Positions 87-18,556 of a stretch of 64,000 nucleotides of DNA are shown piece by piece (position 1 is the stretch's first letter; each line of letters begins with the position of its first letter). Location of the stretch: assembly GCF_041821045.1 (NCBI RefSeq), contig NZ_JBGUAW010000005.1:248001-312000 (forward strand). Direction: 5' to 3'. The notes beneath the pieces were generated by a model, which had not been told where the DNA came from, ran no database searches, and was given only the letters and a program-made list of their open reading frames with translations. The DNA comes from Thiohalorhabdus sp. Cl-TMA. Lineage in GTDB: Bacteria; Pseudomonadota; Gammaproteobacteria; Thiohalorhabdales; Thiohalorhabdaceae. The translations under genes were made by a program, and so were the position numbers.

Positions 87-2885
87 ATGGAATCGTATGT
101 TCGAAAGGGGCGCCGGGGGACCTCCCTGGCGGGAGCACTGGCCGCCGCGTTGATCGCCGGCTGCGGGGGTGACGGCATGAGCGCCGCGGAGCACCTGGAG
201 CGGGCGGCACACTACCGGAAGGAAGGGGACCAGCGGGCCGCGGTGATCGAGCTCAAGAACGCCCTCCAGCAAAAGCCGGAAAACGCCGAGGCGCGGCTCC
301 GGCTGGGCCGGACCTACGTGGCCCTGGGAGACGGCGTATCCGCGGTGAAAGAGCTGCGACGGGCCGCGGATCTGGGCATGGCCGAGCGGAAGGTGGCCAT
401 GCCGCTCGCCGAGGCGCTGCTCCTGAAGGGCCAGCCCCGCAAGCTCCTGGAGGAGGTCCAGCCCGGGGAGGTGAGCGCGAAGCCGGAACGGGCCGCGGTA
501 CTCGCTTTCCGGTCCCGGGCCCATCTGGCTCTGGGGGAGCCGGAAAAGGCCGCCTCCCTGGTGGAGGAGGCGCTCTCCCTGGATGGGAGCTCGGGGAAGG
601 TGCGCCTGGCCAAGGCCCAGCTGGAGGCCGCCACCGGGGATCCCGAAGCCGCCTCGGAATGGGCGGAACGGGCCCTGGACACCGAAGAGGCGCCCGGCGC
701 CGCCTGGAGCCTTCTGGGCGATATTCATCGCCGGCAGGGACGTCTGGAGGCCGCCGAGAAGGCCTACAGTCAGGCCATCGAGCATCGCACCAACAGCGCG
801 GGTGATCATCTGAAACGCGCCCTGATCCGGATCGCGAATGGGGAAACGAAGGCCGCCCGAACCGATCTGGATGTTCTCGAGGAGGTTGCGCCCGATCACC
901 CCGGGCTCGCCTACGGGCGGGGCCTGGTCCGATTCCAGGAGGGCGACCTGAGCGCCGCCCGCACCGATTTCCAGGAGGCCGTGCGGGCTGCCCCGGGGCA
1001 TGTGCCGGCGCGGTTCTACCTGGGTGTATCCCATTATCTCCAGGAGAACTACAACCAGGCCGAAGTGCAGCTTTCCCGGCTCCTGGAGCGGGCGCCGCAG
1101 CAGAAACAGGCGGCCAAGGTGCTGGGATCGATCTATCTGCGCTGGGAGGAATACGATGCCGCCTCCCGGGTCCTGAAGCGCGTGGTGGAGCACAATCCCG
1201 GGGACCAGACGGCACTGACCCTCCTGGGGCGGGCCTCCCTGGGCGCCGGACGGACCGAGGAGGGCATCCGGTACCTGCGTCGCCTGGTGAAGAATGCCCC
1301 GGAAGATCCGGCGGCGCAGACTACCCTGGCCCTGGGACTGCTCTACAAGGGAGCGCGAAACGAAGGGACCAGGGCGCTGGAAAAGGCCATCGACCTGGCG
1401 CCGGGGGCCAAGCTACCGGAGATGTTGCTGATCCAGCAGCATTTCGCGGCCCGGGAATTCGACAAGGCGCTGGCGGCCGCCAAGCGGTTCAAGGAAAACC
1501 GGCCGGAGAGCATCCGGCCCGAGCTCTACATGGGGCTGGCCTACCTGGGCAAGGACCAGCCCGGAAAGGCGCGGGAGGCGTTCCGCGAGGCCCTGGCACA
1601 GAAGCCGGGGAGTCCCGCCGCGGGCAACAACCTGGCCCGGCTCGCCGCCAAGGCGGAGCGGTATGACGAGGCCCGCGGCTACTATCGGCAGATCCTGGAG
1701 CATAATCCCGGCCACCTGGAGACGCTGCTCTCGCTTGCCCGGCTGGAGGCGGGGCGCGGCAACCGCGCGGAGGCCATCTCCACGCTGCGCAAGGCCCGCG
1801 AGGCCAACCCCGGGGCCACCGAGCCCCGGGTCCTGTTGGCCCGTTTCCATAGACACGCGGGTGAGCACCGAAAGGCCCTGTCGGCGGCCCGGCAGGGACT
1901 GGATGAAGTGCCGCCCGAGCCCAACCTCCTGGCGGAGATCGGCCAGGCCCAGCTTGCCCTGAGCAAGGAATCCGCCGCCCTGTCCACCTTCAAGCGCCTG
2001 ACGGAGGAAGCCGCCGACTCCGCCCGGGCGCGGTTCCTCACCGCCAAGGCCTATGCCCGGATGGGTGCACCCCGGAAGGTGGAGGACCAGCTCCGCGCCG
2101 CCCTGGAAAAGGACGAGGAGTATTTCCAAGCCCGCCTGGTGCTGGCCGAATTGCTGATCGAGACCGGTCAGCTGGACGCCGCGGGTGAACAGGTTCGGAA
2201 ACTGCGGGAGGCGCACCAGGGGCATCCGGAGGTGGCCGTGCGCGCCGCCCGGCTGGCGGCCAGCGAGGGCCGCCCGGAGGACGCCATAACCGCCTACCGG
2301 AAGGCCCTGGATCGGCACGCCAGCTCCAAATGGACCCGCAGCCTGGCGGCCCTGCAGCGCCGCGCCGGGCGTCCGGAAAAGGCCCTGGCGACGCTACGGG
2401 AATGGCTGGCGGACCATCCGCAGGACGCCAAAGCCCGCATGGAGCTGGGCAACCTGCAGCTGGAGCGGGGCAAGTCCGATGCGGCCGTGGCGGCATTCCG
2501 GCATGTGGTGGATGCGCATCCGAACAATGTAGCGGCCCGGAACAACCTCGCCTGGATCCTCAAGGACCGCAGTCCGGACGAGGCGGAGCGCCATGCCGAG
2601 CGGGCCCTGAATTTGGCACCCGGCTCTCCGATGGTTCTGGATACTGCCGGCCTGGTGAAGCTCGCACTGGGGAAAGTGGACGAGGCGGTCCGCCTTCTGC
2701 GCGACGCCGCCGATCGTGCCCCGAAGCGCCCGGTATTCCAGGTCCACCTCGCCCGGGCTTTGCGGGCGCAGGGCCGTGCGCAGGAGGCCCGCGCCCTGCT
2801 GGAGAACCTGCTCGCGGACGGGAAGCAGTTCGCCCGCCGGGCCGAGGCGAAGGGCATGCTGAAAGAGCTCGCCGCCCAGCCCTAG
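87..2885 (+). CDS. prsT: PEP-CTERM system TPR-repeat lipoprotein PrsT
   Basis: A 932-residue lipoprotein made almost wholly of tetratricopeptide repeats. A basic start and a hydrophobic stretch end in the lipobox LIAGC, with Cys26 as the lipidated residue. From about residue 40 to the end, 34-residue TPR units follow each other with the usual A, G, Y and P positions (for example NPGHLETLLSLARLEAGRG). Length and architecture match the PrsT family found with exosortase A systems, where it is thought to act as an envelope scaffold for exopolysaccharide or PEP-CTERM protein handling; its exact role is unknown. The ATG at 87 has a good purine-rich binding site. PrsT usually follows the prsK/prsR two-component genes, which would lie just left of the window. 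Confidence 0.9.
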   Translation: MESYVRKGRRGTSLAGALAAALIAGCGGDGMSAAEHLERAAHYRKEGDQRAAVIELKNALQQKPENAEARLRLGRTYVALGDGVSAVKELRRAADLGMAERKVAMPLAEALLLKGQPRKLLEEVQPGEVSAKPERAAVLAFRSRAHLALGEPEKAASLVEEALSLDGSSGKVRLAKAQLEAATGDPEAASEWAERALDTEEAPGAAWSLLGDIHRRQGRLEAAEKAYSQAIEHRTNSAGDHLKRALIRIANGETKAARTDLDVLEEVAPDHPGLAYGRGLVRFQEGDLSAARTDFQEAVRAAPGHVPARFYLGVSHYLQENYNQAEVQLSRLLERAPQQKQAAKVLGSIYLRWEEYDAASRVLKRVVEHNPGDQTALTLLGRASLGAGRTEEGIRYLRRLVKNAPEDPAAQTTLALGLLYKGARNEGTRALEKAIDLAPGAKLPEMLLIQQHFAAREFDKALAAAKRFKENRPESIRPELYMGLAYLGKDQPGKAREAFREALAQKPGSPAAGNNLARLAAKAERYDEARGYYRQILEHNPGHLETLLSLARLEAGRGNRAEAISTLRKAREANPGATEPRVLLARFHRHAGEHRKALSAARQGLDEVPPEPNLLAEIGQAQLALSKESAALSTFKRLTEEAADSARARFLTAKAYARMGAPRKVEDQLRAALEKDEEYFQARLVLAELLIETGQLDAAGEQVRKLREAHQGHPEVAVRAARLAASEGRPEDAITAYRKALDRHASSKWTRSLAALQRRAGRPEKALATLREWLADHPQDAKARMELGNLQLERGKSDAAVAAFRHVVDAHPNNVAARNNLAWILKDRSPDEAERHAERALNLAPGSPMVLDTAGLVKLALGKVDEAVRLLRDAADRAPKRPVFQVHLARALRAQGRAQEARALLENLLADGKQFARRAEAKGMLKELAAQP

Positions 2886-2918
2886 GCCGGGCGGCGCCGA
2901 AAGGGACGAGCCACCGGG

Positions 2919-4913
2919 ATGCGTGCCGGGTTCCGCTATGAGCAGGCCTTTTGCCGTAACCTCGGATGGGTCACGGAATGGGAGCAGCAGCTCCTTCGGG
3001 ACCGCACCGTGGCCATCGCCGGGCTCGGCGGGGTAGGGGGCAGCCATCTGGTCACCCTGACGCGGTTGGGCGTCGGGGGCTTCCACCTCGCCGATCCGGA
3101 CCATTTCGAGCTTGCCAATTTCAACCGCCAGGCCGGCGCCACCATGTCCCGCCTGGGGCGCGACAAGCTGGGCGTCATGACCGAGGTGGCCCGGGACATC
3201 AATCCCGAGGTGCGCATAGAGGGCTTCCCCGAGGGGCTGACCGAGGACAATCTCGCCGATTTCCTCGCGGGGGTGGACCTCTTCATTGACGGTCTGGATT
3301 TTTTCGTCCTCGAGATCCGGGCCCGGGCTTTCCAGCGCTGCGCGGCGCTCGGCATCCCGGCGATCACCGCCGCGCCCCTGGGCATGGGCGCCGCCCTGCT
3401 CACCTTCCTTCCCGGCGGCATGGGCTTCGAGGACTACTTCCGGCTGTCGGGCAAGCCGCCCGAGCGCAGGCAGGTCAACTTCCTGGCGGGCCTCAGCCCA
3501 CGCGGCCCCCATCGCACCTATCTCAGGGACCCGCGCCAGGTGGATTTCGAGCGCGGTCGGGGGCCTTCGACCCCCATGGCCATCGATCTGTGCGCCGGGG
3601 CCGCGGCAACGGAGGCCCTCAAGCTGTTCCTGGACCGGGGACGGGTCCGGGGGGCTCCGCACTATTTCCATTTCGACGCTTACCGAGGAAGGTGGATCCG
3701 GGGCTGGCTCCCCGGCGGGAACCGCAATCCCCTGCAACAGCTACGGCTCCGGGCCGGGTATCGGGTCTTTTCGCGGTTTGCCCGCCAGGCGCGGAGGACG
3801 GCCCCCGTTCCCGGTCCCGAGGCGCGTACGGACCTCCAGCGCATGGTGGACCGGGCCCGTTGGGCGCCCAGCGGGGACAACCAGCAGCCGTGGCGGTTCG
3901 AGCTGGAGGAGCCCGATACCCTCCGGATATATCTGGAGGAGAAAGGGGAGGGAACCGTTTACGACTTCGCCAGCCTGCCGAACCGGATGACCCTTGGGTT
4001 TCTTCTGGAAAGCTTGCGGCTGGCAGCTTCCGAGCTGGGACGGGACTTCCGCTGGTCCTCCCGGCCCTTGAGCGGCGGCGCCCTCATGGTAGAGGCCGAG
4101 GCGCCAAAAGAGGCCAGCGTGGCGCCCGATCCCCTGGCGCCTTTCCTGCCGGTCCGCTCCGTGGATCGACGGGCCCACCGGCGTTTCCCCCTGGGAGCGG
4201 ACCTGCAAACGGAGCTGGCCTCCTGCCTGGGGGAGGAATTCGAGGTGCGCTGGCTCGCCGCCCCTGGTGAGCGCTGGGAGGTCGCCCGGATCCAGGCGCT
4301 TGCCACCGACATCCGGTTGCGGATTCCGGAAGCCTTCCGGGTGCATCAGGCGGTCCTGGACTGGACGGAGGCCAACAGTGCCGACGGAATACCCGCTCAT
4401 AGCGTCGGCCTGGACCCCCTGACGGCGGCGCTCATGCGCTGGGCCCTGGGGGGATGGCGCCGTATGCGGTGGATGAGCCGGCTGCCCGGAAGCACTCTGA
4501 TTCCGAGGCTGGAAATGGATCTGATCCCCGGTCTCTTCACCGGTGCCCATTTCCTGGTGCTGCGCCGCCATTCTTCGGGGAACGGCCGTGCGGAGACCGA
4601 GCAGCTCCTGCGGCTGGGGGCTGACCTGCAGCGCCTCTGGCTTACAGCCACCCGGAGTGGGCTGGTGCTGCATCCCAACCTCGCGCCGCTGTGCTTCGCC
4701 CATTATGGCCGCCACGGCACGGTCTTCACCGAGGATTCCCGGGCTCCGGCCCGGGCACGCGCCCTGGCGGATCGCGTGCAGGCGCTCGCCCCGGACCGGG
4801 ATCCGGACTCGGTCGTATTCCTCGGCCGGATCGGCTGGCCGCGAAGGCGGACGGCGCCTGGACGCTCCGTTCGGCATGCTTGGTGGGAACTGGTGCGCCC
4901 GCAGTCGGACTGA
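2919..4913 (+). CDS. ThiF/E1-like adenylyltransferase fused to a nitroreductase-like domain
   Basis: A 664-residue two-domain protein. Residues 1 to about 280 form a ThiF/MoeB/E1-type fold: nucleotide loop GLGGVGGSH (35-43), then Arg70, Lys83 and Asp127 in the contexts NFNRQ, GRDK and GLD expected for ATP binding. The paired CxxC zinc motifs of MoeB/ThiF were not seen. From about 305 a nitroreductase-like domain begins with ARWAPSGDNQQPWRFE (313-328), the flavin-binding signature of that family, and runs to the C-terminus. The arrangement resembles the Rv1355c-type fusions of mycobacteria. It lies 33 bases after prsT in the same direction, so it is probably co-transcribed. E1-like domains activate carboxylates as adenylates; the substrate here is unknown, and no ubiquitin-like partner is visible nearby. 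Confidence 0.82.
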   Translation: MRAGFRYEQAFCRNLGWVTEWEQQLLRDRTVAIAGLGGVGGSHLVTLTRLGVGGFHLADPDHFELANFNRQAGATMSRLGRDKLGVMTEVARDINPEVRIEGFPEGLTEDNLADFLAGVDLFIDGLDFFVLEIRARAFQRCAALGIPAITAAPLGMGAALLTFLPGGMGFEDYFRLSGKPPERRQVNFLAGLSPRGPHRTYLRDPRQVDFERGRGPSTPMAIDLCAGAAATEALKLFLDRGRVRGAPHYFHFDAYRGRWIRGWLPGGNRNPLQQLRLRAGYRVFSRFARQARRTAPVPGPEARTDLQRMVDRARWAPSGDNQQPWRFELEEPDTLRIYLEEKGEGTVYDFASLPNRMTLGFLLESLRLAASELGRDFRWSSRPLSGGALMVEAEAPKEASVAPDPLAPFLPVRSVDRRAHRRFPLGADLQTELASCLGEEFEVRWLAAPGERWEVARIQALATDIRLRIPEAFRVHQAVLDWTEANSADGIPAHSVGLDPLTAALMRWALGGWRRMRWMSRLPGSTLIPRLEMDLIPGLFTGAHFLVLRRHSSGNGRAETEQLLRLGADLQRLWLTATRSGLVLHPNLAPLCFAHYGRHGTVFTEDSRAPARARALADRVQALAPDRDPDSVVFLGRIGWPRRRTAPGRSVRHAWWELVRPQSD

Positions 4914-4935
4914 AGCGGAAACGGAGCGCGGACCG

Positions 4936-4963
4936 AAAAAAAGGCCGCCCCATGGGCGGCCTT
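4936..4963 (-). terminator. Intrinsic terminator of the PEP-CTERM gene
   Basis: A perfect 10-base stem (4941-4950 with 4954-4963) and a 3-base loop, read on the minus strand, is followed by a run of seven T (4942-4936). It lies 26 bases past the stop of the minus-strand PEP-CTERM gene. Being symmetrical, it may also slow plus-strand transcription leaving the ThiF-fusion gene. Confidence 0.85.
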
Positions 4964-4988
4964 CGATACGAGGCGAGTGCCGGCGGGC

Positions 4989-5975
4989 TCAGCAGCCCGC
5001 GGTGGTGCGGCTGGGCCGCCGCCGGCCAAAGGCGGCCATGAGCATGAGGCCCAGACCGGTGAGCGCGGCCGTGGCCGGCTCCGGAATCTGCTGGTCCTCT
5101 TCCGGGCCCACGTTGATGTTGGCCTTGTTATAGACGCCGAATCCGCTTTCCGCGGAGGGGCCGAACAGGTCACCGTCGCCGTACAGGCCGACGTTGGCGG
5201 AGCCTCCCGGGGCGAAGGCGATGTTCTGGATCTCGGAGGAACCGAGGTTCTGGCTGAACTCGCTGAAGTCCCGGTCGAAGTTCTCGTACATCCAGCTGGC
5301 GCCGAAGAAGAAGTCCCCGACATCCTCGTTCAGGTCGGCGTCCTGGAAGGCCTGGAGGTCTCCCGGACCCCGGGCGATCCAGAAGTCATCCGAGTCCACC
5401 AAGCCCGCCGCTGCCCGCAGCTGGCCGTCGCTGGCGTCCATCAGCTCCTGCTCCGCATCCCCCGAAGTCCGGTCGAAGGTGGTGTTGGACAGGGAGTCAT
5501 CGTAGAACAGCGCGCTCAGCTGGCCCTTGTCGATGCCCAGGGAATCGGCCGTAGCATCGCTGATATAGGGATCCCAGGCACCGGCGCCGGCGCTCTGGAG
5601 CTCGAAATCCCAGACCTCATAGGTATTGCCGCTGTACTCGGCGGTTTGGCCGGTATCCGATATACCCGCCACCTCCATCTGGAAGAGGGCGGTGAATTGC
5701 CGGCCGGTGGTATTCACGAAGGTGCCCTGACCACCGTCCTCGATCTTGGTGATATCGATGGCACCCCGCATGACATCGCCTTCTTGAATGTTGCCCTGGA
5801 TCTCCTGGCCGTCGCGGTAGACGTTTTCCCCGCTGTCGTCGGTCAGGAGCACCTCCCCGGAAGGCATGATGGAATCCAGGGCGGACGATTGTGCCTGGGC
5901 CGCGCCCGCCGTGGTCAGACCGAAGGTGGTCAGCCCGGCCAGGGCGGCATGCAGCAAAGGGTTACGGATCCTCAT
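4989..5975 (-). CDS. PEP-CTERM sorting domain protein
   Basis: A 328-residue secreted protein and the only exosortase substrate seen in the window. The N-terminus is a signal peptide ending near AGAAQA. The C-terminus has the tripartite sorting signal: PEP at 298-300, a hydrophobic stretch (TAALTGLGLMLMAAF) and an arginine cluster (RRR, 318-320). The mature region is acidic, rich in Asp, Ser and Gly, and matches no domain I can name. XrtA is expected to cleave at PEP; in flocculating relatives such proteins are held at the surface with exopolysaccharide. An unusual tail, PSRTTAGC, extends past the arginines and ends in Cys. GGAGGAA lies about five bases before the ATG. A sigma-54-type promoter is upstream and a terminator downstream, so it is probably monocistronic. 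Confidence 0.9.
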   Translation of the reverse strand: MRIRNPLLHAALAGLTTFGLTTAGAAQAQSSALDSIMPSGEVLLTDDSGENVYRDGQEIQGNIQEGDVMRGAIDITKIEDGGQGTFVNTTGRQFTALFQMEVAGISDTGQTAEYSGNTYEVWDFELQSAGAGAWDPYISDATADSLGIDKGQLSALFYDDSLSNTTFDRTSGDAEQELMDASDGQLRAAAGLVDSDDFWIARGPGDLQAFQDADLNEDVGDFFFGASWMYENFDRDFSEFSQNLGSSEIQNIAFAPGGSANVGLYGDGDLFGPSAESGFGVYNKANINVGPEEDQQIPEPATAALTGLGLMLMAAFGRRRPSRTTAGC

Positions 5976-6023
5976 TCTGGTTCCTCCAAATCGTGTCAGG
6001 TCTTAACTGGGGGCCGTATTGGT

Positions 6024-6039
6024 TGGCACCCGCCTCGCC
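6024..6039 (+). promoter_or_regulatory. Possible second sigma-54 site, plus strand
   Basis: TGGCACCCGCCTCGCC has a perfect -24 half and a GC at the right spacing, but only a partial -12 half. It faces the acyltransferase, 450 bases away, and overlaps the start region of the minus-strand promoter. It could be a weak promoter, or one half of an inverted repeat used by a regulator. Confidence 0.35.
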
Positions 6040-6046
6040 CCGGATG

Positions 6047-6063
6047 TAGCCAGTACTGTGCCA
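6047..6063 (-). promoter_or_regulatory. Putative sigma-54 promoter of the PEP-CTERM gene
   Basis: Read on the minus strand: TGGCACAGTACTGGCTA. The GG (6062-6061) and GC (6050-6049) have the required 10-base spacing, and the -24 half TGGCAC is perfect. Ten of twelve consensus positions of TGGCACG-N4-TTGCW match. A start near 6037 would give a leader of about 60 bases. RpoN control of PEP-CTERM genes is known in Zoogloea-type floc formers, which supports the reading. Confidence 0.7.
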
Positions 6064-6429
6064 AGCCGCAAAAAACCAAAAATTCAGAACGCTAGTGGGG
6101 TCTCTGCTGGCAGGGCGGCGATTTGTGTAAATGGTAATGACGGATCCCGGGTTTTATAAAATTAATAATTATTCTATAAATTATTGAAATACAGGAAATG
6201 TTGGTAACGTTTCATGAGTGTAAAGTGTAAAGGATCATTGCGGGTCGCGGCCATTTGTTACGGCCCCGAATAGGCAGGAGCGATGAGCGGTCCCCGGACT
6301 GAACGAATTAGGTTTGTAAATTTTGCTTTTTGTCAAAGTGTAGGTTGCATACAGTTCATAGGAATTTATCGTGAATCGGAAGTCTTCCTATTAAAAATCT
6401 CGAAAAATATAAGTTTCCCTGTCGTTGCA

Positions 6430-6445
6430 TGGCAACACGGGTGCT
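6430..6445 (+). promoter_or_regulatory. Putative sigma-54 promoter of the acyltransferase
   Basis: TGGCAACACGGGTGCT has GG (6431-6432) and GC (6443-6444) at the 10-base spacing; nine of twelve consensus positions match. A start near 6456 would give a leader of about 40 bases to the GTG at 6497. It lies just downstream of the AT-rich segment that could hold activator and IHF sites. Confidence 0.6.
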
Positions 6446-6496
6446 TTCCAAGGTCCGGAATTCCGCACTCACGGTTTCCGGAAGGGGGGGTAAAAC

Positions 6497-7213
6497 GTGC
6501 ATACGTCCGGTCCAGTACCGAATCACGAGCTCTATGAGGTGTTTCATTCCCTGTTCGAGGTGGTCCCGGCGGATACGGCGGAGCGAATAGCTATTTCCCA
6601 GGCACTGCGGTACCAGGTCTATTGCCTGGAGCAAGGCTTCGAAAGGCCCGAAGCCCATCCCGACGAGCGGGAACGGGATCCGTACGACGGCCGCTCCGTG
6701 CACGCCCTGGTGCGCTGTCGCCGAACCGGGCAGTTTGCCGGTTCCGTTCGTCTGGTTCTGTCGCATCCGCAGAATCGGGATGCCCCGTTCCCCATCGAGG
6801 AGCATTGCCTGGACGTCTTCCACCGTCCTTCCATGCGCTGGGAGCTGCCGCGCCACGCCACGGCGGAGATATCCCGCTTCGCCATTTCCAGGAGGTTTAC
6901 ACGGGTTCCGCACATCACCATCGGACTGTTCGCCGGGATCGTGCAGATGAGCGTTCGGCAGGGCATTACCGACTGGTATGCGGTCATGGAGCCGGCCTTG
7001 CTGCGCCTGCTCACCCGGTTCGGCATCCGTTTCCAGCCCATTGGCGGCATGGTGGCGTACCACGGCCGCAGGCGACCGACTCGGGGGCTGGCTGACAGGA
7101 TATTGGCGGGTATCCACCAGGAGCGGCCGGAGGTCTGGGAGGTGATTACCGATTGCGGAAGGATGTGGCCCCTGACGGGGGAGTCCCGGAAGCCGGGTGA
7201 AGCGCGCTACTGA
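6497..7213 (+). CDS. PEP-CTERM/exosortase-associated N-acyltransferase
   Basis: A 238-residue protein of the GNAT/autoinducer-synthase-like family found with exosortase systems (TIGR03694 type, related to N-acyl amino acid synthases). The segment ISQALRYQVYCLEQGFE near the N-terminus and AEISRFAISRRF in the middle are characteristic. Members are thought to transfer an acyl chain from acyl-ACP to an amino acid or similar amine; the product here is unknown. The GTG start follows a run of seven G at 6484-6490, a strong ribosome binding site. It has a sigma-54-like promoter and a terminator-like hairpin after it, so it is probably a single-gene unit. Sharing regulation with the PEP-CTERM gene fits a signal or lipid made when the sorting system is active. 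Confidence 0.85.
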   Translation: MHTSGPVPNHELYEVFHSLFEVVPADTAERIAISQALRYQVYCLEQGFERPEAHPDERERDPYDGRSVHALVRCRRTGQFAGSVRLVLSHPQNRDAPFPIEEHCLDVFHRPSMRWELPRHATAEISRFAISRRFTRVPHITIGLFAGIVQMSVRQGITDWYAVMEPALLRLLTRFGIRFQPIGGMVAYHGRRRPTRGLADRILAGIHQERPEVWEVITDCGRMWPLTGESRKPGEARY

Positions 7214-7281
7214 GCGCGGGTCATCGCCGGAAAAATCGGAGCCGCCATAGGGAGGCGAGAAAGGCTTCGTTCGGACGCAAT

Positions 7282-7306
7282 AGCCCCGGCCTGTGCCCGG
7301 GGCTTT
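7282..7306 (+). terminator. Terminator-like hairpin after the acyltransferase
   Basis: AGCCCCGG (7282-7289) pairs with CCGGGGCT (7297-7304) around a 7-base loop, followed by a short TTT. It lies about 70 bases after the stop codon. The T run is short, so efficiency is uncertain. Confidence 0.6.
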
Positions 7307-7966
7307 CGTGATGCGGTACGCGGCCGGAATGGGCCCGGGGCATACCCCCCCCGCCTCTCCGGACGTCTGCCTGTGGTATCCGCGTTCTCCCCCGCAGGTC
7401 CGCCGATGGCGGCGCCGGGTCTTCAGGGGAGCGCCGTGGCGCGTGCAAGGATGACGGGGGCTCCGGTAGCTGAAGCCGGGATGACCCGCTGGGGAGGCTA
7501 CCTAGAAAAAATCGCCCGGTCGCCGCCGTACCGCTGTTGGCGGTGACAGATAACCGCTGGCGGACATGGTACCCCTACTTCGGCCCGCATTCCGGACCTG
7601 CCGAGCGCTCCCGCCACGATGAAAGGTCCCTGCGGACGGGTCCGGGTAGCGGCCGGATCTCCAGACCCGGGTTCGCCTGCCTCACCACATCTCCCCCCTT
7701 CCGAATCTTTTACCGGCATCCCGAAGGCGCGCGCCGCCACGTGGCAGCCCCCGGGGAGCATCATTGCGCCCAAAGGCCGGGCAGGGCGCGGGCATCCGTA
7801 CTGCGCGAATGGGTGTCCGGACCGGGCGCCGACGGGCCGGAATTTGCTTTTTTTCGGTTGTTCCTCTTTGCAGCGGATGAGGACATGTGCGAAAAGGGGT
7901 AATTTGCGGTTATTAAAAATAAAATAATATTCAAGTAGTTGTTTTTGAATAAATAATTCAGGATCT

Positions 7967-7984
7967 TGTAAAACTATTTTTACA
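7967..7984. repeat. Perfect inverted repeat, possible operator
   Basis: TGTAAAA (7967-7973) and TTTTACA (7978-7984) are separated by CTAT. The palindrome lies in the AT-rich leader about 130 bases before the start of the exopolysaccharide operon. The form suits a dimeric DNA-binding protein, but no regulator can be named. Confidence 0.5.
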
Positions 7985-8111
7985 GTTTCAAAGCCGGTAT
8001 GGCGCCTGATAGGGGTTCGCCCCAAGAGTATGTTGGTGTCTTTTACGTTATTACTGTCCAAAAGAAAGGAAATTTGCATAAAGGCCCTGCGGGCCGGGGA
8101 GGGGAAAAACC

Positions 8112-8750
8112 TTGAAGGTATGCCTTGGAGTGCCCCGCACTCTCATGTGGATATTCGTGCCACTGGGCGTGATGGGCGTGGCCGGTTGCGGCGGACCGGG
8201 GGTTCCGGAAGGCACCCCGAAAAATTTGGAAAAGGTGGACGAGAGCCCGTACTACCTGATCGGTCCCGGAGATACCGTCAACATATTTGTCTGGCGGAAT
8301 CCCGAGCTTTCCGTAACCGTCCCCGTTCGGCCCGACGGGCGCATAACCACGCCGCTGGTGGAGGACGTAACCGCCAGCGGCCGGACCCCCACGCAGCTGG
8401 CCCGGGTCATGGAAAACCGGCTTAGCACCTACATCAAGCAGCCGGAAGTGACCGTCATGGTCAATCAGTTCCAGGGTCTCCCCACCCGACAGATTCGGGT
8501 GGTCGGAGAGGCCACCGAGCCGCAGGCCATTCCCTTTGAAGACAATCTTTCCCTCCTTGACGTAATGATCCAAGTGGGCGGACTCACCGAGTTTGCCGCC
8601 GGAAATCGGGCGAAATTGGTGCGGACCGTCGACGGGAAGCGCAAGCAGTACAACGTCCGCCTCGACGACCTGGTCCGTGAAGGGGACATCAGCGCCAACG
8701 TGGACATGCTTCCCGGGGACATCCTTTTCATCCCCGAAGCCTATTTCTAG
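8112..8750 (+). CDS. XrtA-system polysaccharide export lipoprotein (EpsE/Wza-type)
   Basis: A 212-residue outer-membrane lipoprotein and first gene of the core exopolysaccharide operon. The lipobox VAGC places the lipidated cysteine at residue 26. From about residue 48 comes the polysaccharide export domain (YLIGPGDTVNIFVWRNPELS), then one SLBB-like domain ending in LPGDILFIPEAYF. It is short, like the PEP-CTERM-associated export proteins (TIGR03027 type), and should form or line the exit channel with the chain-length protein. The frame points to a TTG start at 8112 with a GGGGAGGGGAAA binding site just upstream; a rare start could keep levels low. It lies 29 bases before the chain-length gene. 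Confidence 0.87.
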   Translation: MKVCLGVPRTLMWIFVPLGVMGVAGCGGPGVPEGTPKNLEKVDESPYYLIGPGDTVNIFVWRNPELSVTVPVRPDGRITTPLVEDVTASGRTPTQLARVMENRLSTYIKQPEVTVMVNQFQGLPTRQIRVVGEATEPQAIPFEDNLSLLDVMIQVGGLTEFAAGNRAKLVRTVDGKRKQYNVRLDDLVREGDISANVDMLPGDILFIPEAYF

Positions 8751-8779
8751 CTCGATTACAGGCGGATTGGTAACCGATC

Positions 8780-10393
8780 ATGCATGAAGCAATTTCGCAG
8801 CTTCTATCCTATCTCCGTGGGGTATGGCGATTCCGCTGGACCGCCCTGCTCATGGCGTGGTTCGTGGCGCTGGGCGCCTGGAGCCTGGTGTATTACATCC
8901 CCGACCAGTACGAGGCCAACGCCCGGGTCCATGTGGATACTCATTCCATTCTCAAGCCCCTGCTGGAGGGCATGGTGGTGGAAACCAACACCCAGCAGCG
9001 GCTTCGCCTCATGTCCAAGACCCTCCTCAGCCGGCCCAATCTGGAGAAGGTGGCCCGGATGACCGATATGGACCTGGCGGTGGACAACCGGGTCGAGATG
9101 GAGGCGCTGATCGACAAGCTCCGGGAGCGGATCAGGCTGGAGGCCACGGGCAAGCTCAATCTCTACGAGATCTCCTATCAGGACACGGACCCCAAGCAGG
9201 CGAAGCAGGTGGTTCAGTCCCTGCTGACCCTGTTCGTGGAGAAGAGCCTCGGCGAGAGCCGCGAGGACAACGCGGCCGCCCAGGACTTCCTGAAAAGCAA
9301 GCTCAAGGAGTACGAGCAGCGCCTGGAGAAGGCCGAGCAGCGCCTGATGGAGTTCAAGCGCAAGCACACCGGGGAGATGCCCAACGAGCAGGGGGACTAC
9401 TACCAGCGGCTGCAAAGCAAGATGGCCAAGCTGGAGCGGACCCGGATGAAGCTGGAGAGCGCCCAGCAGCGCCGGGATGCCCTGCAGAAGCAGCTTGCCG
9501 GAGAGAAGCCCACCTACGGGGTCATGGAGCGCACCGTGCAGCCCGCGGCCGGCTCATCGGGCCCGAGCCAGCTGGATCAGCGCATCTCCAAGCTGCAGCA
9601 GGAGCTCGACCAGCTGCGCCTCCAGTACACCAACAAGCACCCCGACGTTCAGAATCTGGTGGCCACCATCGAGAACCTGAAGCAGCAGCGCCAGAGCCAG
9701 CAGCCGCAGCAGGCCCCAGCCAGTAGCCGGACCGCGAGCCGGGGAAGCACCGGCTCCAATCTGGCCACCAACGATTACTACCAGAGCCTGCGAACCTCCC
9801 TGGCCGAGGCCAAGGCCGAGGTGGCGGAGCTGAAGAGCCAGGCTTCCCAGTACGAGAAACAGGTGGAGACCCTGAAGCAAAAGGTGGACACCATTCCGCA
9901 GGTGGAAGCCAAGCTGGCCCAGCTCAACCGCTCCTACCGGGTCAACAAGAAGAACTACGAGAAGCTGCTTGCCCGCCTGCAGAGTGCGCGGATCTCCGAG
10001 GAGGTGGGCCGCAGCACCGACGACGTGAAGTTCCAGGTGGTGGATCCCCCGCAGGTTCCGGTGGAGCCGGTGGCACCCAACCGACCGCTGCTCGTCAGCG
10101 GCGGCCTCTTCGGCAGCGTGGGCGCCGGTCTGGTGCTCGGGGTGCTCATGGCCCAGATCCGGCCCGTTTTCGATTCCCGTCGGAGCCTGTTCGAGGCCAC
10201 CGGTCTGCCGGTGGTGGGAACGGTATCCCAGGTGAACAACCGGGCCACGTCGGCCCGTAAACGAACTGAAGCCCTGCTGTACCTGGTTGGGATGGTCCTG
10301 CTGCTGCTCGCGTACGGGGTGGCCATGGCCATTGCCTTCTGGGGAACGGGCCCCATCGAGACATGGCTCAGCGCGTGGGGAATATCCCTATGA
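8780..10393 (+). CDS. XrtA-system polysaccharide chain-length determinant (Wzz-like)
   Basis: A 537-residue inner-membrane polysaccharide co-polymerase. A Wzz domain with a first membrane segment (about 18-38) is followed by a long periplasmic region of coiled coil (about 140-240 and 330-400) with a Gln/Ser-rich linker near 300-325, then a hydrophobic hairpin (about 435-460) and a final membrane segment near 500-525. This layout is that of the PEP-CTERM chain-length family (TIGR03007 type). It sets polymer length together with the tyrosine autokinase encoded next, whose ATG overlaps its TGA. Confidence 0.9.
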   Translation: MHEAISQLLSYLRGVWRFRWTALLMAWFVALGAWSLVYYIPDQYEANARVHVDTHSILKPLLEGMVVETNTQQRLRLMSKTLLSRPNLEKVARMTDMDLAVDNRVEMEALIDKLRERIRLEATGKLNLYEISYQDTDPKQAKQVVQSLLTLFVEKSLGESREDNAAAQDFLKSKLKEYEQRLEKAEQRLMEFKRKHTGEMPNEQGDYYQRLQSKMAKLERTRMKLESAQQRRDALQKQLAGEKPTYGVMERTVQPAAGSSGPSQLDQRISKLQQELDQLRLQYTNKHPDVQNLVATIENLKQQRQSQQPQQAPASSRTASRGSTGSNLATNDYYQSLRTSLAEAKAEVAELKSQASQYEKQVETLKQKVDTIPQVEAKLAQLNRSYRVNKKNYEKLLARLQSARISEEVGRSTDDVKFQVVDPPQVPVEPVAPNRPLLVSGGLFGSVGAGLVLGVLMAQIRPVFDSRRSLFEATGLPVVGTVSQVNNRATSARKRTEALLYLVGMVLLLLAYGVAMAIAFWGTGPIETWLSAWGISL

Positions 10394-11250
10394 ATAGTAT
10401 CGAGAAGGCAATGGACCAGCTGGGCAGCGGTCCGCCGCTGGAAATGGACCCCGCCCAGACTGAGGACGTCCAGGAGCAGAAGCCCCGATCCGGCCGGCAT
10501 GAACGCCCGCCGGAGGACGTGGACATCGAGCTGCCCTACAAGCGCCTCCGTCGCCGCGGGCTGCTGACCCCCTCCGATTCGGAGAGCCGGCTGGCGGAGG
10601 AATACCGGCTCATCAAGCGGCCTCTGCTTCTGAACGCCTTCCGGGAGGCGCAGCAGGCGCTGCCCCGGGGCAATATGGTCATGATCACCAGCGCCCTGCA
10701 GGGGGAAGGCAAATCCTTCACCGCCTTCAACTTGGCCGTGAGCATGGCCATGGAGCTGGATTACACCGTGCTCCTGGTGGATGGCGACCTGGAGGAGGCT
10801 TCCCTGACCCGCTGGCTGGCGCGCCGGGACATGACCGGGTTTTCGGACCTGCTGGAAGATCCGGACCGGGACGTGAGCGAGGCGCTGCTGCGGACGGACA
10901 TGCCACGCCTCAGCCTGATCCCCGCCGGAAAGCGCCACCCTCAGGCCACCGAGCTCCTGGCCAGCGGCCAGATGGCTCAGGTAACGGAGGAGATCTCGCA
11001 GCGGTATCCGGACCGGATCATCCTGTTCGATTCGCCACCGCTGCTGGTGACCAGCCAGTCCACGGTGCTCGCCGGGGCCATGGGGCAGGTGCTCCTAGTT
11101 GTGGAATCCGGCCGCACGCCGCAGCACCTGGTGCACGAGGCCATGGGTTTGCTCGACACCGAGAGCCAGTGGGTGGGCTCCATCCTCAACAAGGGTGAGC
11201 GGTTTTCCAGCGGCTCCTATTACGGCGGCTACTATGGCCAGTACGGCTGA
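10390..11250 (+). CDS. XrtA-associated tyrosine autokinase (BY-kinase)
   Basis: A 286-residue cytoplasmic bacterial tyrosine kinase of the PEP-CTERM type (TIGR03018). Walker A is SALQGEGKS (101-109), Walker A' is VLLVDGDLEE and Walker B is ILFDSPPLL. The C-terminus is a tyrosine cluster, SYYGGYYGQYG, the usual autophosphorylation tail. It should cycle with the chain-length protein to control polymerisation and export. I chose the ATG at 10390 because it overlaps the previous stop by four bases (ATGA); an ATG at 10363, nine codons earlier, is possible but would overlap by 31 bases. Confidence 0.9.
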   Translation: MNSIEKAMDQLGSGPPLEMDPAQTEDVQEQKPRSGRHERPPEDVDIELPYKRLRRRGLLTPSDSESRLAEEYRLIKRPLLLNAFREAQQALPRGNMVMITSALQGEGKSFTAFNLAVSMAMELDYTVLLVDGDLEEASLTRWLARRDMTGFSDLLEDPDRDVSEALLRTDMPRLSLIPAGKRHPQATELLASGQMAQVTEEISQRYPDRIILFDSPPLLVTSQSTVLAGAMGQVLLVVESGRTPQHLVHEAMGLLDTESQWVGSILNKGERFSSGSYYGGYYGQYG

Positions 11251-12838
11251 GTGCGCTCGTCGTCCCCGGTCTTGTGTCCGCAGCCCTGCCCATCGGCCTC
11301 TGCAACCGCGAAGCAAGGGAGTGGCCCTGTTGGTTCTCGTGGCTTTCGCCGTCCCCGGTCCCGCCCACGGGCAAACCTTCTCCGGCGGGGGCCGGGGCTC
11401 CCTCTTCGGGGAGACGCCCCTGGGGGATGCGCTCGATTCCGGGGAGGGAGAAGAGGAGCAGCGCCGGGGGCAGTGGGTGGTGGAGCCGCGGCTCACGCTC
11501 GGCGAAACCATCACCGACAACTACAGCCTGGCTCCTCCCGGCGAGGAGGAATGGGATTTGGTCTCGCAGATCACGCCCGGGATCGGTATCGAGGGCGAGG
11601 GGAGGCGGGTGCAGGCCTACCTGGACTATCAGGCCCAGAGTCTCTTCTACGTCCGGAATCCCGACACCAACGGGGTATTCCATCAGCTCGACGCCAACGG
11701 TACCGGTGAGCTCCTTCGCAACCATCTGTTCCTGGACGCGAGTGCCGCCTATACCCAGCAGCTGATCTCGCCGGCGGGAACGGTGCCGACCTCCAACTTG
11801 GTGCCCACGGCGAACCGCACGGACGTGGCCAATTTCCGCGTGAGTCCCTATGCGGTGCAGGAATTCGGCAGCTTCGCCAACGGCCAGGTCCGCTATACCT
11901 ACGACCGGACGCAGTACGCCAGCGGCGGGCTGTTCGATACGGAGAGCAACGCCATAAGCGGCTCCCTGAACAGCGGGCGCCGGTTTAACGAGCTGGGATG
12001 GAGCCTGCGGTATTACCGCGAGAAGGAGCAGCTCGAGGAGCTGCCGGACCGAACCTTCGAGCGCTATTCGGGGGAGCTCAGCTACCGGCTGGGGGCCAAG
12101 ACCGAAATTTTCGGGGTCGGCGGCTACGAGGACAACGACTATGAAACGCGGCAGCAGGGAACGGACCTCAGCAGTGACTTCTGGGAAGGGGGGCTGCGCT
12201 ACCACCCGACCCGGCGGACCTCCCTGGAGGGCGCCTTCGGCGAGCGCTATTTCGGTAATACCTGGCGGGTCAACCTCCGCCATCGGGCGCCCGATTCGGA
12301 GTGGTTCCTCCGCTATACGGAGACCGTCGAGACCACCACGCAGGTGCAGGACGATCAGCTCCAGTTCCGCCTGACCGATTCCTCCGGGAACACCATCACG
12401 GATGAACAGGGCAATCCGGTCATCGTCGAGGTGCCGTTCTCGCTGCAGATCCAGGACGTGTTCCTCCGGAAGCGCCTGTACGGGGAGGTAACCGCCCATA
12501 CCGCCAAGGCCCAGATCCGGGTTTCCGGGTACGGCGAAAGCCGCGAGTACCAGCGAACCGGCGTGGAGGAGGAAGGCTACGGGGCCGGTGCAGGGATGAA
12601 CTGGCGCATCGCCCCCCGCACCCGGGCCATCGGCCGGATCTCCTGGGACCGCCACGACCTCGCCTTCCTCGGTGACAGGAATGACGACATCTGGCGGCTG
12701 GGGGTGCGTCTTGCCCGGGAGCTGCGGCGCAAGCTGACCGCGTCCCTGGATTACCAATACCTGCGCCGGGATTCCAACCAGCCCGGCGTAGAGTACCGGC
12801 AAAACTCGGTGAGCCTCCTGCTCACCAAGGTTTTTTAG
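11234..12838 (+). CDS. XrtA-associated outer-membrane beta-barrel protein
   Basis: A protein of about 534 residues with an N-terminal signal (hydrophobic VALLVLVAFAVPGPAHG, cleavage before QTF). Alternating polar and hydrophobic strands rich in Tyr, Arg and Gly follow, and the end is KVF, with the terminal Phe typical of outer-membrane barrels. It matches the PEP-CTERM-associated outer-membrane family (TIGR03016 type), probably the outer-membrane part of the export route. The start is uncertain: ATG 11234 overlaps the kinase gene by 17 bases and gives a basic n-region; GTG 11321 would give a very short signal peptide; an upstream start at 11099 would lie wholly inside the kinase gene. Confidence 0.82.
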   Translation: MASTAECARRPRSCVRSPAHRPLQPRSKGVALLVLVAFAVPGPAHGQTFSGGGRGSLFGETPLGDALDSGEGEEEQRRGQWVVEPRLTLGETITDNYSLAPPGEEEWDLVSQITPGIGIEGEGRRVQAYLDYQAQSLFYVRNPDTNGVFHQLDANGTGELLRNHLFLDASAAYTQQLISPAGTVPTSNLVPTANRTDVANFRVSPYAVQEFGSFANGQVRYTYDRTQYASGGLFDTESNAISGSLNSGRRFNELGWSLRYYREKEQLEELPDRTFERYSGELSYRLGAKTEIFGVGGYEDNDYETRQQGTDLSSDFWEGGLRYHPTRRTSLEGAFGERYFGNTWRVNLRHRAPDSEWFLRYTETVETTTQVQDDQLQFRLTDSSGNTITDEQGNPVIVEVPFSLQIQDVFLRKRLYGEVTAHTAKAQIRVSGYGESREYQRTGVEEEGYGAGAGMNWRIAPRTRAIGRISWDRHDLAFLGDRNDDIWRLGVRLARELRRKLTASLDYQYLRRDSNQPGVEYRQNSVSLLLTKVF

Positions 12839-12847
12839 GAAGCCGCA

Positions 12848-13810
12848 ATGTACGAGTCCTTTTACAACCTTGAAGCGAAGCCCTTCCAGCTCAGCCCGGA
12901 TCCGCGGTTCTTCTTCGGCAGCCGCGGCCACCGCCGGGCCCTGGCCTATCTGCGCTACGGGCTTGGGCAGGGCGACGGCTTCGTGGTGGTGACCGGCGGC
13001 GTGGGCACCGGGAAGAGCACCCTGGTGCAGATGCTGCTCGCCGAGCTGAAGCGACAGCGGAACGTGGTAGCCGCCCAGCTGGTGATGACGCAGCTCGATC
13101 CGGACGATCTGCTGCGCATGGTGGCCGGTGCCCTCGGGCTGGAGAACGAGGGCCTGAGCAAGGCGGCGCTGCTGCGCAAGTTCGAATCCTATCTCCGCAA
13201 GCAGCGCCGCGAGGGCAAGCGGGTGCTGCTGCTCCTGGACGAGGCGCAGAACCTCCCCGCCCGCAGCCTGGAATCGCTGCGTATGCTCTCCAACTTCCTC
13301 GACGGCGAGCAGCCGCTCATCCAGAGCTTCCTGCTCGGCCAGGCGGAGTTCCGGGACACCCTGTCCTCGCCGCGCCTGGAGCAGATGCGACAGCGGGTCA
13401 TCGCCAGCTGCCACCTGACCTCCTTCGAGGAGGAGGAGACCCGCAGTTACATCGAGCACCGCCTGCGCAATGTCGGCTGGAAGGACGACCCCGACATCAG
13501 CGAGGAGGCCTTCCAGGCCATACATCAGTACACCCGCGGGGTGCCCCGCTCCATCAATACCTTCTGCGACCGGTTGCTGCTGTTCGGCTACCTGGAAGGG
13601 CTCCACCAGCTCGACGTGGAGACGGTGGAATCGGTGGCCCAGGAGCTCAACGTGGAGCTTGAAAGCGAGGAAGGGGAGGACGGGGAGGCCGGCTCCACGG
13701 ACGGCCAATCCCGCATGGCGCGCCTGGAGCGGCGCATCGAGCTTCTGGAGGAGGCCCTGAGCGCCACGCGCGACGGCCTCAATCAGGCCCTGGCCGAGCG
13801 GTACGGGTAG
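12848..13810 (+). CDS. XrtA-associated ATPase (ExeA/MshM-like)
   Basis: A 320-residue AAA-type ATPase of the exosortase A family (TIGR03015 type). It begins with the typical MYESFYNLEAKPFQLSPDP, has Walker A GGVGTGKST (50-58) and Walker B LLLLDEAQN, and ends with a short helical tail. Related ATPases (ExeA, MshM) energise envelope assembly; the PEP-CTERM member is a constant part of these loci but its mechanism is not known. It follows the beta-barrel gene by nine bases and precedes the deacetylase by six. Confidence 0.9.
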   Translation: MYESFYNLEAKPFQLSPDPRFFFGSRGHRRALAYLRYGLGQGDGFVVVTGGVGTGKSTLVQMLLAELKRQRNVVAAQLVMTQLDPDDLLRMVAGALGLENEGLSKAALLRKFESYLRKQRREGKRVLLLLDEAQNLPARSLESLRMLSNFLDGEQPLIQSFLLGQAEFRDTLSSPRLEQMRQRVIASCHLTSFEEEETRSYIEHRLRNVGWKDDPDISEEAFQAIHQYTRGVPRSINTFCDRLLLFGYLEGLHQLDVETVESVAQELNVELESEEGEDGEAGSTDGQSRMARLERRIELLEEALSATRDGLNQALAERYG

Positions 13811-13816
13811 TCCGGA

Positions 13817-14674
13817 ATGGAATCGGATCCCGTCATCAGCAATGCCCTGACCGTGGACGTGGAGGACTATTTCCAGGTCTCGGCCTTCGAGGGCCACATC
13901 CGCCGGGAGGACTGGGACCGGCTGCCGCACCGCGTGGAGCGGAATACCGACCGGATCCTTCAGCTTTTCGCGGATAAGGGCGCTCGGGCCACCTTCTTCG
14001 TGCTCGGCTGGGTGGCGGAGCGCTACCCGGACCTGGTGCGGCGCGTGGCCGACAACGGCCACGAGGTGGCGAGCCACGGCTACAGCCACATCCGCGTAAC
14101 CGACCATGCTCCCGAGGCGTTCCGGGCCGATGTGCGGACCACCAGGCGGCTGCTCGAGGAGGTCTCCGGGCAGCCGGTGAAGGGCTACCGCGCGGCCAGC
14201 TTTTCCATCGGGCGCGACAACGCGTGGGCCTTCGACGTGCTGCAAGAGGAGGGATACCGCTACAGCTCGAGCGTCAACCCCATCCGCCACGACCTCTATG
14301 GCATGCCCGACGCGCCGCGTTTCGCCTTCACCGCCAATGCGCAGGGGCTGATCGAGGTGCCCATCTCCACGGTTCCGCTGGCCGGACGCAACAACCCCTG
14401 TGGGGGGGGCGGGTTCTTCCGCCTGCTTCCCTATCCCTATTTCCGTTGGGGGATGCGGCGCATCAACCACATGGAGGGCCAGCCGGGGGTCTTTTACTTC
14501 CATCCCTGGGAGATCGACCCGGATCAGCCCAGGCAGCGCGGCATCGGCTGGCGGACGCGCTTCCGCCACTACGTCAATCTCCACCGGACCGAGGATCGGC
14601 TGAAGCGCCTGCTCGGCGATTTCCGGTGGGACCGCATGGACCGAATTTTCCTGGGGGAAGAGGAGCACGCATGA
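13817..14674 (+). CDS. XrtA-system polysaccharide deacetylase
   Basis: A 285-residue NodB-type (CE4) deacetylase of the PEP-CTERM family (TIGR03006 type with a DUF3473 tail). The first motif is LTVDVEDYF, carrying the metal and catalytic Asp pair, and the second is GHEVASHGYSHIRV with the two metal-binding His. The C-terminal part (YPYFRWGMRRINHMEGQP, then FYFHPWEID) is specific to this subfamily. It should remove N-acetyl groups from the polymer or from a lipid-linked intermediate. No signal peptide is seen. Its TGA overlaps the next ATG by four bases. Confidence 0.9.
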   Translation: MESDPVISNALTVDVEDYFQVSAFEGHIRREDWDRLPHRVERNTDRILQLFADKGARATFFVLGWVAERYPDLVRRVADNGHEVASHGYSHIRVTDHAPEAFRADVRTTRRLLEEVSGQPVKGYRAASFSIGRDNAWAFDVLQEEGYRYSSSVNPIRHDLYGMPDAPRFAFTANAQGLIEVPISTVPLAGRNNPCGGGGFFRLLPYPYFRWGMRRINHMEGQPGVFYFHPWEIDPDQPRQRGIGWRTRFRHYVNLHRTEDRLKRLLGDFRWDRMDRIFLGEEEHA

Positions 14675-16979: not shown

Positions 16980-18556
16980 CCGTGCAGGGACATGAAGAGC
17001 TCCGATTGCCCGATCCGGTGCGGGGCTGGACGGAGGCGCGCCCCCTGGTTCTGGCGCTGCTCTACCTGGCGGGCCTGGTGGCCGTCTATCACGAAACGGC
17101 CCTGTCCATGGCCGCCATCTGGTGGCGCTCCCAGACCTATGCCCACGGGGTGCTGGTGCTGCCCGTATCCGCCTATTTCCTGTGGCGCCGCCGCCGTCTC
17201 CTCGCCTCGCTACCCCTGGGTCCCGACGCGCGGGGCCTGGTGGCCCTGGGTGCCTTGACCGGTACCTGGTTCCTGGCGCAGCGGGCGGAGGTGCTGTTCA
17301 TGCAGCATCTTGCCCTGGTGGCCATGATTCCCGCGGGGCTCTGGGCGCTGCTCGGCGCCCGCTTCGTGCGGGCCGCGGCGTTTCCCCTGGGATTCCTGAT
17401 CTTCGCCGTTCCCCTTGGGGAGGGCCTGGTGCCCCTGCTCCGGGATTTCACGGCGACCTTCAGCGTCTCGGCACTGCAGATCACGGGAATACCGGTGTAC
17501 CGGGAGGGCCACTACATCTCCATTCCCGAGGGACGCTTCCTGGTGGCCGACGCCTGCAGCGGCATCCGCTACCTCATCGCCTCTCTGGCCATCGGCACCC
17601 TGTTCGCCTACCTGAACTACCGTTCCCTGTGGCGGCGCTTGGCCTTCATCGCGGCGGCCGCGGCGGTGCCGGTCCTGGCCAACGGCGTCCGGGCCTACGG
17701 CATCGTGGTGCTGGCGCACCTCAGTGATATGCGGCTGGCCACCGGGGTGGACCACATTATCTACGGCTGGGTGTTCTTCGGCGTGGTTATGGTGCTGCTT
17801 TTCTGGCTGGGCGGCTTCTGGCGGGATGCCCGGTCCGGCGTTCCGGAGGAGCCGGCGCAGGAGGAGCCGGGCCGGATCGGGAGGGGCGCCAGCAACGCTG
17901 GTCTGGCCCTGGTCGGGGCGCTGGTGCTGGCCGTCGCGGGGGCCGGTCCGGCCGGGGCCGCCTGGCTTAACCGGAGTGCCAGCGGCTTCTCGGCCACCAC
18001 GCTGGACCTTCCGCCCGGTAAGGCCGGCTGGCGGGGCCCCGCCCCCGTCGAGGGCACCTGGCACCCGCGCTATAGGGGCGCGGATCGGATGGTGCATCGG
18101 GCGTACCGCGGCGGCGAAGGGACGGTTCGCGTACTGCTCATTCATTACCGGAACCAGCAACAGGGAGCGGAACTGATTTCCTCCGGAAACAGCTTGCATA
18201 ACGGAAAGCATTGGGTGCGGACCGGGGAAGGGCGGGAGACCGCCGATCTGCCCGGTTCCACGGACGGCTTCGGCGTACGGGAGCTCCTGCTCAAGGGCCC
18301 CGGAGGGCGGCGCTTGGTCTGGCAGTGGTACGACATCGGCGGCCACGTCACCTCCCGTCCCATAGCGGCCAAGCTCTGGGCGGCCTGGGAGGAGATCCGG
18401 AGCGGCCGTCCGGACGCCACCCTGATCGCCGTGGCTACCGATTATGAAGGCCGGCTGGGGCCGGCCCGGAAGCGGCTGTCGCGGTTCCTGGGCGCGTTCC
18501 CCGCCATGACCCGGGGGGGACGGTTGGTTCGCGCCATGCAGGGGGAGGGCTCATGA
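16976..18556 (+). CDS. xrtA: Exosortase A fused to an EpsI domain
   Basis: A 526-residue integral membrane cysteine transpeptidase-like enzyme that processes PEP-CTERM proteins. About eight membrane segments fill residues 22-282. The catalytic triad is visible: Cys194 in DACSGIRYL, Arg239 in ANGVRAYG and His260 in HIIYGWVFFG. After a Glu/Pro/Arg linker and another membrane segment (about 305-325) comes a periplasmic EpsI domain to the end (LDLPPGKAGWRG, then QWYDIGG). The XrtA-EpsI fusion is common in this type. I chose ATG 16976 because it overlaps the previous stop (ATGA); the frame is open much further upstream, but that part is a low-complexity shadow of the glycosyltransferase gene. Confidence 0.93.
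   Translation: MTVQGHEELRLPDPVRGWTEARPLVLALLYLAGLVAVYHETALSMAAIWWRSQTYAHGVLVLPVSAYFLWRRRRLLASLPLGPDARGLVALGALTGTWFLAQRAEVLFMQHLALVAMIPAGLWALLGARFVRAAAFPLGFLIFAVPLGEGLVPLLRDFTATFSVSALQITGIPVYREGHYISIPEGRFLVADACSGIRYLIASLAIGTLFAYLNYRSLWRRLAFIAAAAAVPVLANGVRAYGIVVLAHLSDMRLATGVDHIIYGWVFFGVVMVLLFWLGGFWRDARSGVPEEPAQEEPGRIGRGASNAGLALVGALVLAVAGAGPAGAAWLNRSASGFSATTLDLPPGKAGWRGPAPVEGTWHPRYRGADRMVHRAYRGGEGTVRVLLIHYRNQQQGAELISSGNSLHNGKHWVRTGEGRETADLPGSTDGFGVRELLLKGPGGRRLVWQWYDIGGHVTSRPIAAKLWAAWEEIRSGRPDATLIAVATDYEGRLGPARKRLSRFLGAFPAMTRGGRLVRAMQGEGS

Follow-up and report, generated by a model that had tools for sequence, protein, structure and literature searches.

In this work we analysed a 64,000-nucleotide stretch of DNA from Thiohalorhabdus sp. 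Cl-TMA, referred to below as the window, and found at positions 2919–4913 (+ strand, ATG start, 664 aa) an oxzB-like gene that encodes a ThiF cyclase fused to an Acg-type flavin-dependent oxidase. We consider it likely, with a probability of about 0.77, that this protein is an oxazolone synthetase of the OxzB/TrzS type, acting with the acyltransferase encoded at 6497–7213. Enzymes of this kind, which turn fatty-acyl amino acids into reactive ring lipids (oxazolones), are already known; the part that may be new is their wiring, across many Proteobacteria, beside the exosortase machinery by which surface proteins are sorted.

Domains and catalytic residues of the fusion protein

The protein is composed of two domains. 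The ThiF/E1-type adenylation domain (residues about 1–290; 2919–3788, + strand) matches PF00899 at residues 13–259 (E 4e-38, Pfam), and in a predicted model of the whole fusion (mean pLDDT 79) this half matches the fold of E. coli ThiF with a Z score of 23.2. The second domain is a nitroreductase-fold flavin-dependent oxidase (residues 302–664; 3822–4910, + strand), whose predicted model covers the whole of the monomeric Acg oxidase 2YMV (Z 26.7, 299 residues aligned), with a profile match to the same structure at E 1e-14. The second-best fold match of the fusion model is structure 9EGB (AclA), on which a literature search found no papers. The oxidase half is just under the cut-offs of the general nitroreductase models of Pfam (22.6 vs 23.5 bits), and its family relations are given by the Acg family (E 3e-22) and by the Rv1355c family, which spans residues 299–643 (whole-protein E 1e-36). 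An earlier note, made from the letters of the window, had described the gene as a ThiF/E1-like adenylyltransferase fused to a nitroreductase and had proposed modelling its structure; the Pfam match and the two fold matches bear this description out.

The coordinates of the gene and the residues that the same note had listed (the nucleotide loop, Arg70, Lys83, Asp127 and the flavin signature) were read correctly. In 17 aligned fusions the loop GxGGVGG (G35–G41) and residues D59, R70, K83, D124 and D127 are invariant, as are R413, R417, R466 and Q571 in the oxidase half and most positions of the flavin signature APSGDNxQPWRF, which in the window protein reads APSGDNQQPWRF (residues 316–327). Because the loop, R70, K83, D127 and most of the flavin signature are kept in all 17 proteins, the catalytic pockets are not degenerate; degenerate pockets would have been the outcome that the note had named as counting against itself. 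D127 falls on the Asp position of the ThiF motif and is probably the counterpart of TrzS D217; R466 and Q571 have a spacing similar to that of TrzS R540 and Q651, to which they may correspond. The features of the OxzB/TrzS type found here are both domains in one polypeptide, the conserved adenylation Asp and a neighbouring acyltransferase. The fusion is not an orthologue of TrzS, since it scores 126 bits on the Rv1355c (TrzS) equivalog model NF005901, for which the curated cut-off is 476.

The acyltransferase gene and the surrounding XrtA locus

The gene at 6497–7213 (+ strand, 238 aa) encodes a probable N-acyl amino acid synthase, an OxzA/TyzA/TrzA-like partner. It scores 227.9 bits on TIGR03694 (curated cut-off 111.95) and is above the cut-off of FeeM PF21926. 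Residues R38, D61, D64, R85 and R192 are invariant among its relatives, of which the nearest with a solved structure is an acyl-homoserine-lactone synthase.

The oxzB-like gene is the last of a row formed by a TIGR03013 glycosyltransferase gene, prsK (TIGR02916), the response regulator gene prsR (TIGR02915) and prsT. The genes prsK and prsR lie upstream of the window and were found in locus L086, while prsT, which encodes the XrtA/PEP-CTERM TPR protein (87–2885, + strand; TIGR02917, 756 bits), ends 33 bp before the start of the fusion. After this row come a PEP-CTERM gene on the opposite strand (4989–5975, − strand), the acyltransferase gene, the gene for the XrtA system exopolysaccharide export protein (8112–8750, + strand; TIGR03027, 239 bits) and the XrtA core (8780–14674, + strand), which comprises a chain-length determinant, a tyrosine autokinase, the outer membrane protein TIGR03016, an ATPase and a polysaccharide deacetylase. 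Exosortase XrtA itself is at 17051–18556 (+ strand; TIGR03109, 342.8 bits; G000:C5:265051-265827), where the start given is that of the exosortase domain and not the true start codon. The position of the fusion between prsT and a PEP-CTERM gene is thus as first described, but the latter is not the only PEP-CTERM substrate, as the family cut-off is exceeded at 11 places in the genome.

Two further features of the locus were observed. A c-di-GMP gene of the GGDEF-EAL type (L086:1734-3482) lies upstream of the glycosyltransferase–prsK–prsR row, and c-di-GMP genes are also found beside trzAS (PMC12856293). Two sigma-54-like sites on opposite strands are present at 6023–6064, between the PEP-CTERM and acyltransferase genes; across the window such sites are about as numerous as chance predicts, and we do not claim sigma-54 control from them.

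Association with XrtA and the acyltransferase across genomes

The co-occurrence that the earlier note had proposed to score is clear. In a sample of 369 genomes of the class, 40 carry the ThiF domain, and XrtA is over its cut-off in 36 of these 40 compared with 37 of the 329 others (Fisher p 4e-25), while the acyltransferase family is over its cut-off in 30/40 vs 17/329 (p 1e-23); these tests treat genomes as independent and correct for shared ancestry only in part. Counted by family (182 families in all, a total taken from the highest label seen), the XrtA link holds in 25/28 vs 21/154 (p 4e-15). Within XrtA genomes the fusion and the acyltransferase also co-occur (p 6e-8). The association has exceptions on each side: 37 of the 73 XrtA genomes have no fusion, four of the 40 ThiF-domain genomes have no XrtA, and both XrtA and the fusion are missing from 13 genomes with the acyltransferase.

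The genes are also physically linked. Among 45 distinct loci (including that of the window, and with L037 and L069, which are the same locus, counted once), the flanks of about 10 kb contain an acyltransferase gene at 34 and an exosortase-locus gene at 30. For the fusion loci alone (n = 16) the figures are 14 and 10, respectively, so that the fusion is not found mostly away from exosortase loci, a distribution that would have counted against its first description. As controls we took 40 other regions of the same genomes: the acyltransferase was never found there and an exosortase-locus gene was found three times, one of the three being a prsT pair that shares its contig with a fusion. These controls rule out chance linkage. 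The exosortase-linked copies do not form one clade but are scattered over the whole ThiF tree.

A congener (G001) provides a natural empty site. Its locus is syntenic with that of the window (61–91% protein identity) and keeps the orthologous PEP-CTERM gene, but lacks both the fusion and the acyltransferase, the interval from prsT to the PEP-CTERM gene being 0.2 kb instead of 2.1 kb (L089:7354-9963, compared with 2885–8780 of the window). As both genes are missing while the rest is kept, the two genes of the module are gained or lost together, and the module is required neither by the exosortase system nor by that PEP-CTERM substrate. The module is accessory to the XrtA locus and dispensable there in the congener; given also its absence from about half of the XrtA genomes (the 37 mentioned above), the fusion does not belong to the XrtA/PEP-CTERM core.

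Related arrangements occur elsewhere. In another phylum, an XrtA locus on plasmids of Nitratidesulfovibrio vulgaris encodes a single 989-aa protein that joins FeeM, ThiF and nitroreductase domains; its gene has that of a PrsT-like protein on one side and two PEP-CTERM genes on the other (L082:14062-17031, NC_008741.1); the host is a sulfate reducer, whereas the known relatives use O2 for the last step. In Skermanella (Alphaproteobacteria) the fusion adjoins the acyltransferase, with an XrtA match 6–8 kb off. At four loci (L037:13458-14816, L054:15854-17116, L064:11372-12610 and L070:5710-7221) a FeeM-type acyltransferase beside the ThiF gene is fused to a cyclic-nucleotide-binding domain, which suggests second-messenger control. 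No flavin oxidase of this family accompanies the ThiF gene in about 14 loci (within the fetched stretch: L035, L053, L055, L060, L061, L063, L065–L068, L070, L071 and L073–L075). Most of these loci have an acyltransferase or prsT close by, and they represent either a cyclase without a desaturase or an oxidase located elsewhere in the genome. Genes for LolA-like outer membrane lipoprotein sorting lie near the ThiF gene in L057, L062 and L075, where the fetched stretch contains no recognised acyltransferase; this neighbourhood is possibly a second genomic context of this family.

Discussion

The chemistry of the characterised relatives provides a model for the window proteins. As described in PMC10404671 and PMC12856293, OxzB (from Pseudoalteromonas rubra) and TrzS (Rv1355c) are ThiF-like cyclases joined to a flavin-dependent oxidase, and Mycobacterium tuberculosis also has a split version, TyzB plus TyzC. 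Together with an N-acyltransferase, such enzymes make N-acyl oxazolones of Tyr, Phe or Trp, ring closure requiring ATP and desaturation requiring O2 (PMC10404671, PMC12856293). By analogy, the acyltransferase encoded at 6497–7213 would attach a fatty acyl chain to a probably aromatic amino acid; the ThiF half of the fusion would then activate the carboxylate with ATP, so that the amide oxygen could close the ring to an oxazolone (azlactone), and the flavin half would use O2 to remove two hydrogens, yielding the conjugated oxazolone. Substrate, product and step order are all inferred from these relatives. The suggestion that a carboxylate is activated and then subjected to flavin redox chemistry thus gains support from OxzB and TrzS, and of the substrates first proposed, the product of the nearby N-acyltransferase is the likely one, while a peptide or a polymer end is disfavoured by the congener that lacks the fusion.

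On the chemistry, the alternative that we take most seriously is that the same enzymes release an open-chain N-acyl dehydroamino acid of the thalassotalic acid, kyonggic acid or stieleriacine type, with the oxazolone as an intermediate only. N-acyl dehydrotyrosine producers do carry the acyltransferase, ThiF and nitroreductase genes, with no oxazolone seen (PMC12479983), and oxazolones are acid labile (PMC12856293). Nevertheless, purified or heterologous TrzS and TyzBC yield oxazolones, and in the fused TrzS cyclisation precedes desaturation (PMC12856293, PMC10404671), so we regard release of an open-chain product as unlikely. A substrate within the exosortase pathway (a PEP-CTERM protein, a peptide or a polysaccharide end) would fit both the place of the gene, between prsT and a PEP-CTERM gene, and the strong linkage to XrtA loci. 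This is very improbable, as the congener retains the orthologous PEP-CTERM gene and a syntenic locus without the fusion, 37 of the 73 XrtA genomes lack it, and the constant partner is an N-acyltransferase, sometimes within the same polypeptide. The empty site in particular disfavours a PEP-CTERM protein as the substrate. The ThiF fold by itself would also suit an E1 enzyme for a ubiquitin-like or sulfur-carrier protein, but we reject this as having next to no chance of being correct: the fusion is far below the cut-offs of the curated ThiF (77.8 vs 275.25 bits) and MoeB (67.2 vs 266 bits) models, residues 1–290 contain no CxxC zinc motif and, as the earlier note had remarked for ubiquitin-like partners, no carrier protein is seen beside the gene.

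The meaning of the XrtA link is a separate matter. It might be indirect, both traits being typical of aquatic and soil lineages with large surface-polysaccharide loci, with no shared regulation or function. Oxazolone genes do occur without XrtA (4 of the 40 ThiF-domain genomes, and Mycobacterium), as does the acyltransferase in the 13 genomes that also lack the fusion; proximity within about 10 kb (30 of 45 loci; controls, 3 of 40) and the spread of linked copies across the whole ThiF tree make an indirect link unlikely. We favour a direct one, in which the oxazolone synthetase and its acyltransferase likely make an accessory lipid (a signal, a surfactant or a matrix component) under a shared surface and exopolysaccharide programme, and in which the module would not be a protein-sorting step. 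In a more specific version, the LuxI-fold acyltransferase and the oxazolone synthetase, encoded by the last gene of the prsK–prsR–prsT row, would produce a compound resembling a homoserine lactone, which would act back on the surface regulon of PrsK/PrsR as the signal of the exosortase programme. This we hold to be improbable, and PrsK must in any case have another input too, since prsT and XrtA are present in the congener although the module is not.

In PMC12856293, what N-acyl oxazolones do physiologically is called a major unresolved question. Linkage to XrtA/PEP-CTERM loci in many families provides a concrete hypothesis for this role, as part of the surface and exopolysaccharide programme. 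It also suggests what an acyltransferase long filed as exosortase-associated makes, and what some proteins whose annotation is still just hypothetical (PRK08223, PRK14851, PRK14852) are likely to do. The earlier note had presented the fusion as an undescribed modifying step of PEP-CTERM systems. Its chemistry is in fact already described, for OxzB and TrzS; a link between oxazolones and exosortases was not found in the searchable papers, among which the founding OxzB paper is not included, so priority is not certain.

Among known systems, OxzAB of P. rubra, as described in PMC10404671 and PMC12856293, combines like the window locus an N-acyltransferase with a single ThiF–nitroreductase fusion; these two papers do not mention an exosortase context. 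TrzAS (Rv1356c–Rv1355c), which makes tryptazolones in mycolic acid bacteria, likewise has both domains in one polypeptide, and the two oxidase halves are detectably related, although the window fusion is far under the equivalog cut-off of Rv1355c, as noted above; TrzS and OxzB themselves fall in different subclusters (PMC12856293). TyzACB (Rv2336, Rv2337c, Rv2338c), which makes tyrazolones, has the three activities expected of the window acyltransferase and fusion, but its ThiF protein and its oxidase are separate, as in the split loci found in our survey. The window acyltransferase is by score a member of the PEP-CTERM/exosortase-associated family TIGR03694, and Craig 2011, as cited in PMC4897644, reported that N-acyl amino acid synthases are genetically linked to PEP-CTERM systems, a report that as cited does not include the ThiF–oxidase step. 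Finally, the PRK14852 protein of the N. vulgaris plasmids, like that of the window, places ThiF and oxidase domains in an XrtA locus adjoining PEP-CTERM genes, and differs from it by an additional N-terminal FeeM acyltransferase domain, which accompanies a length of 989 instead of 664 aa.
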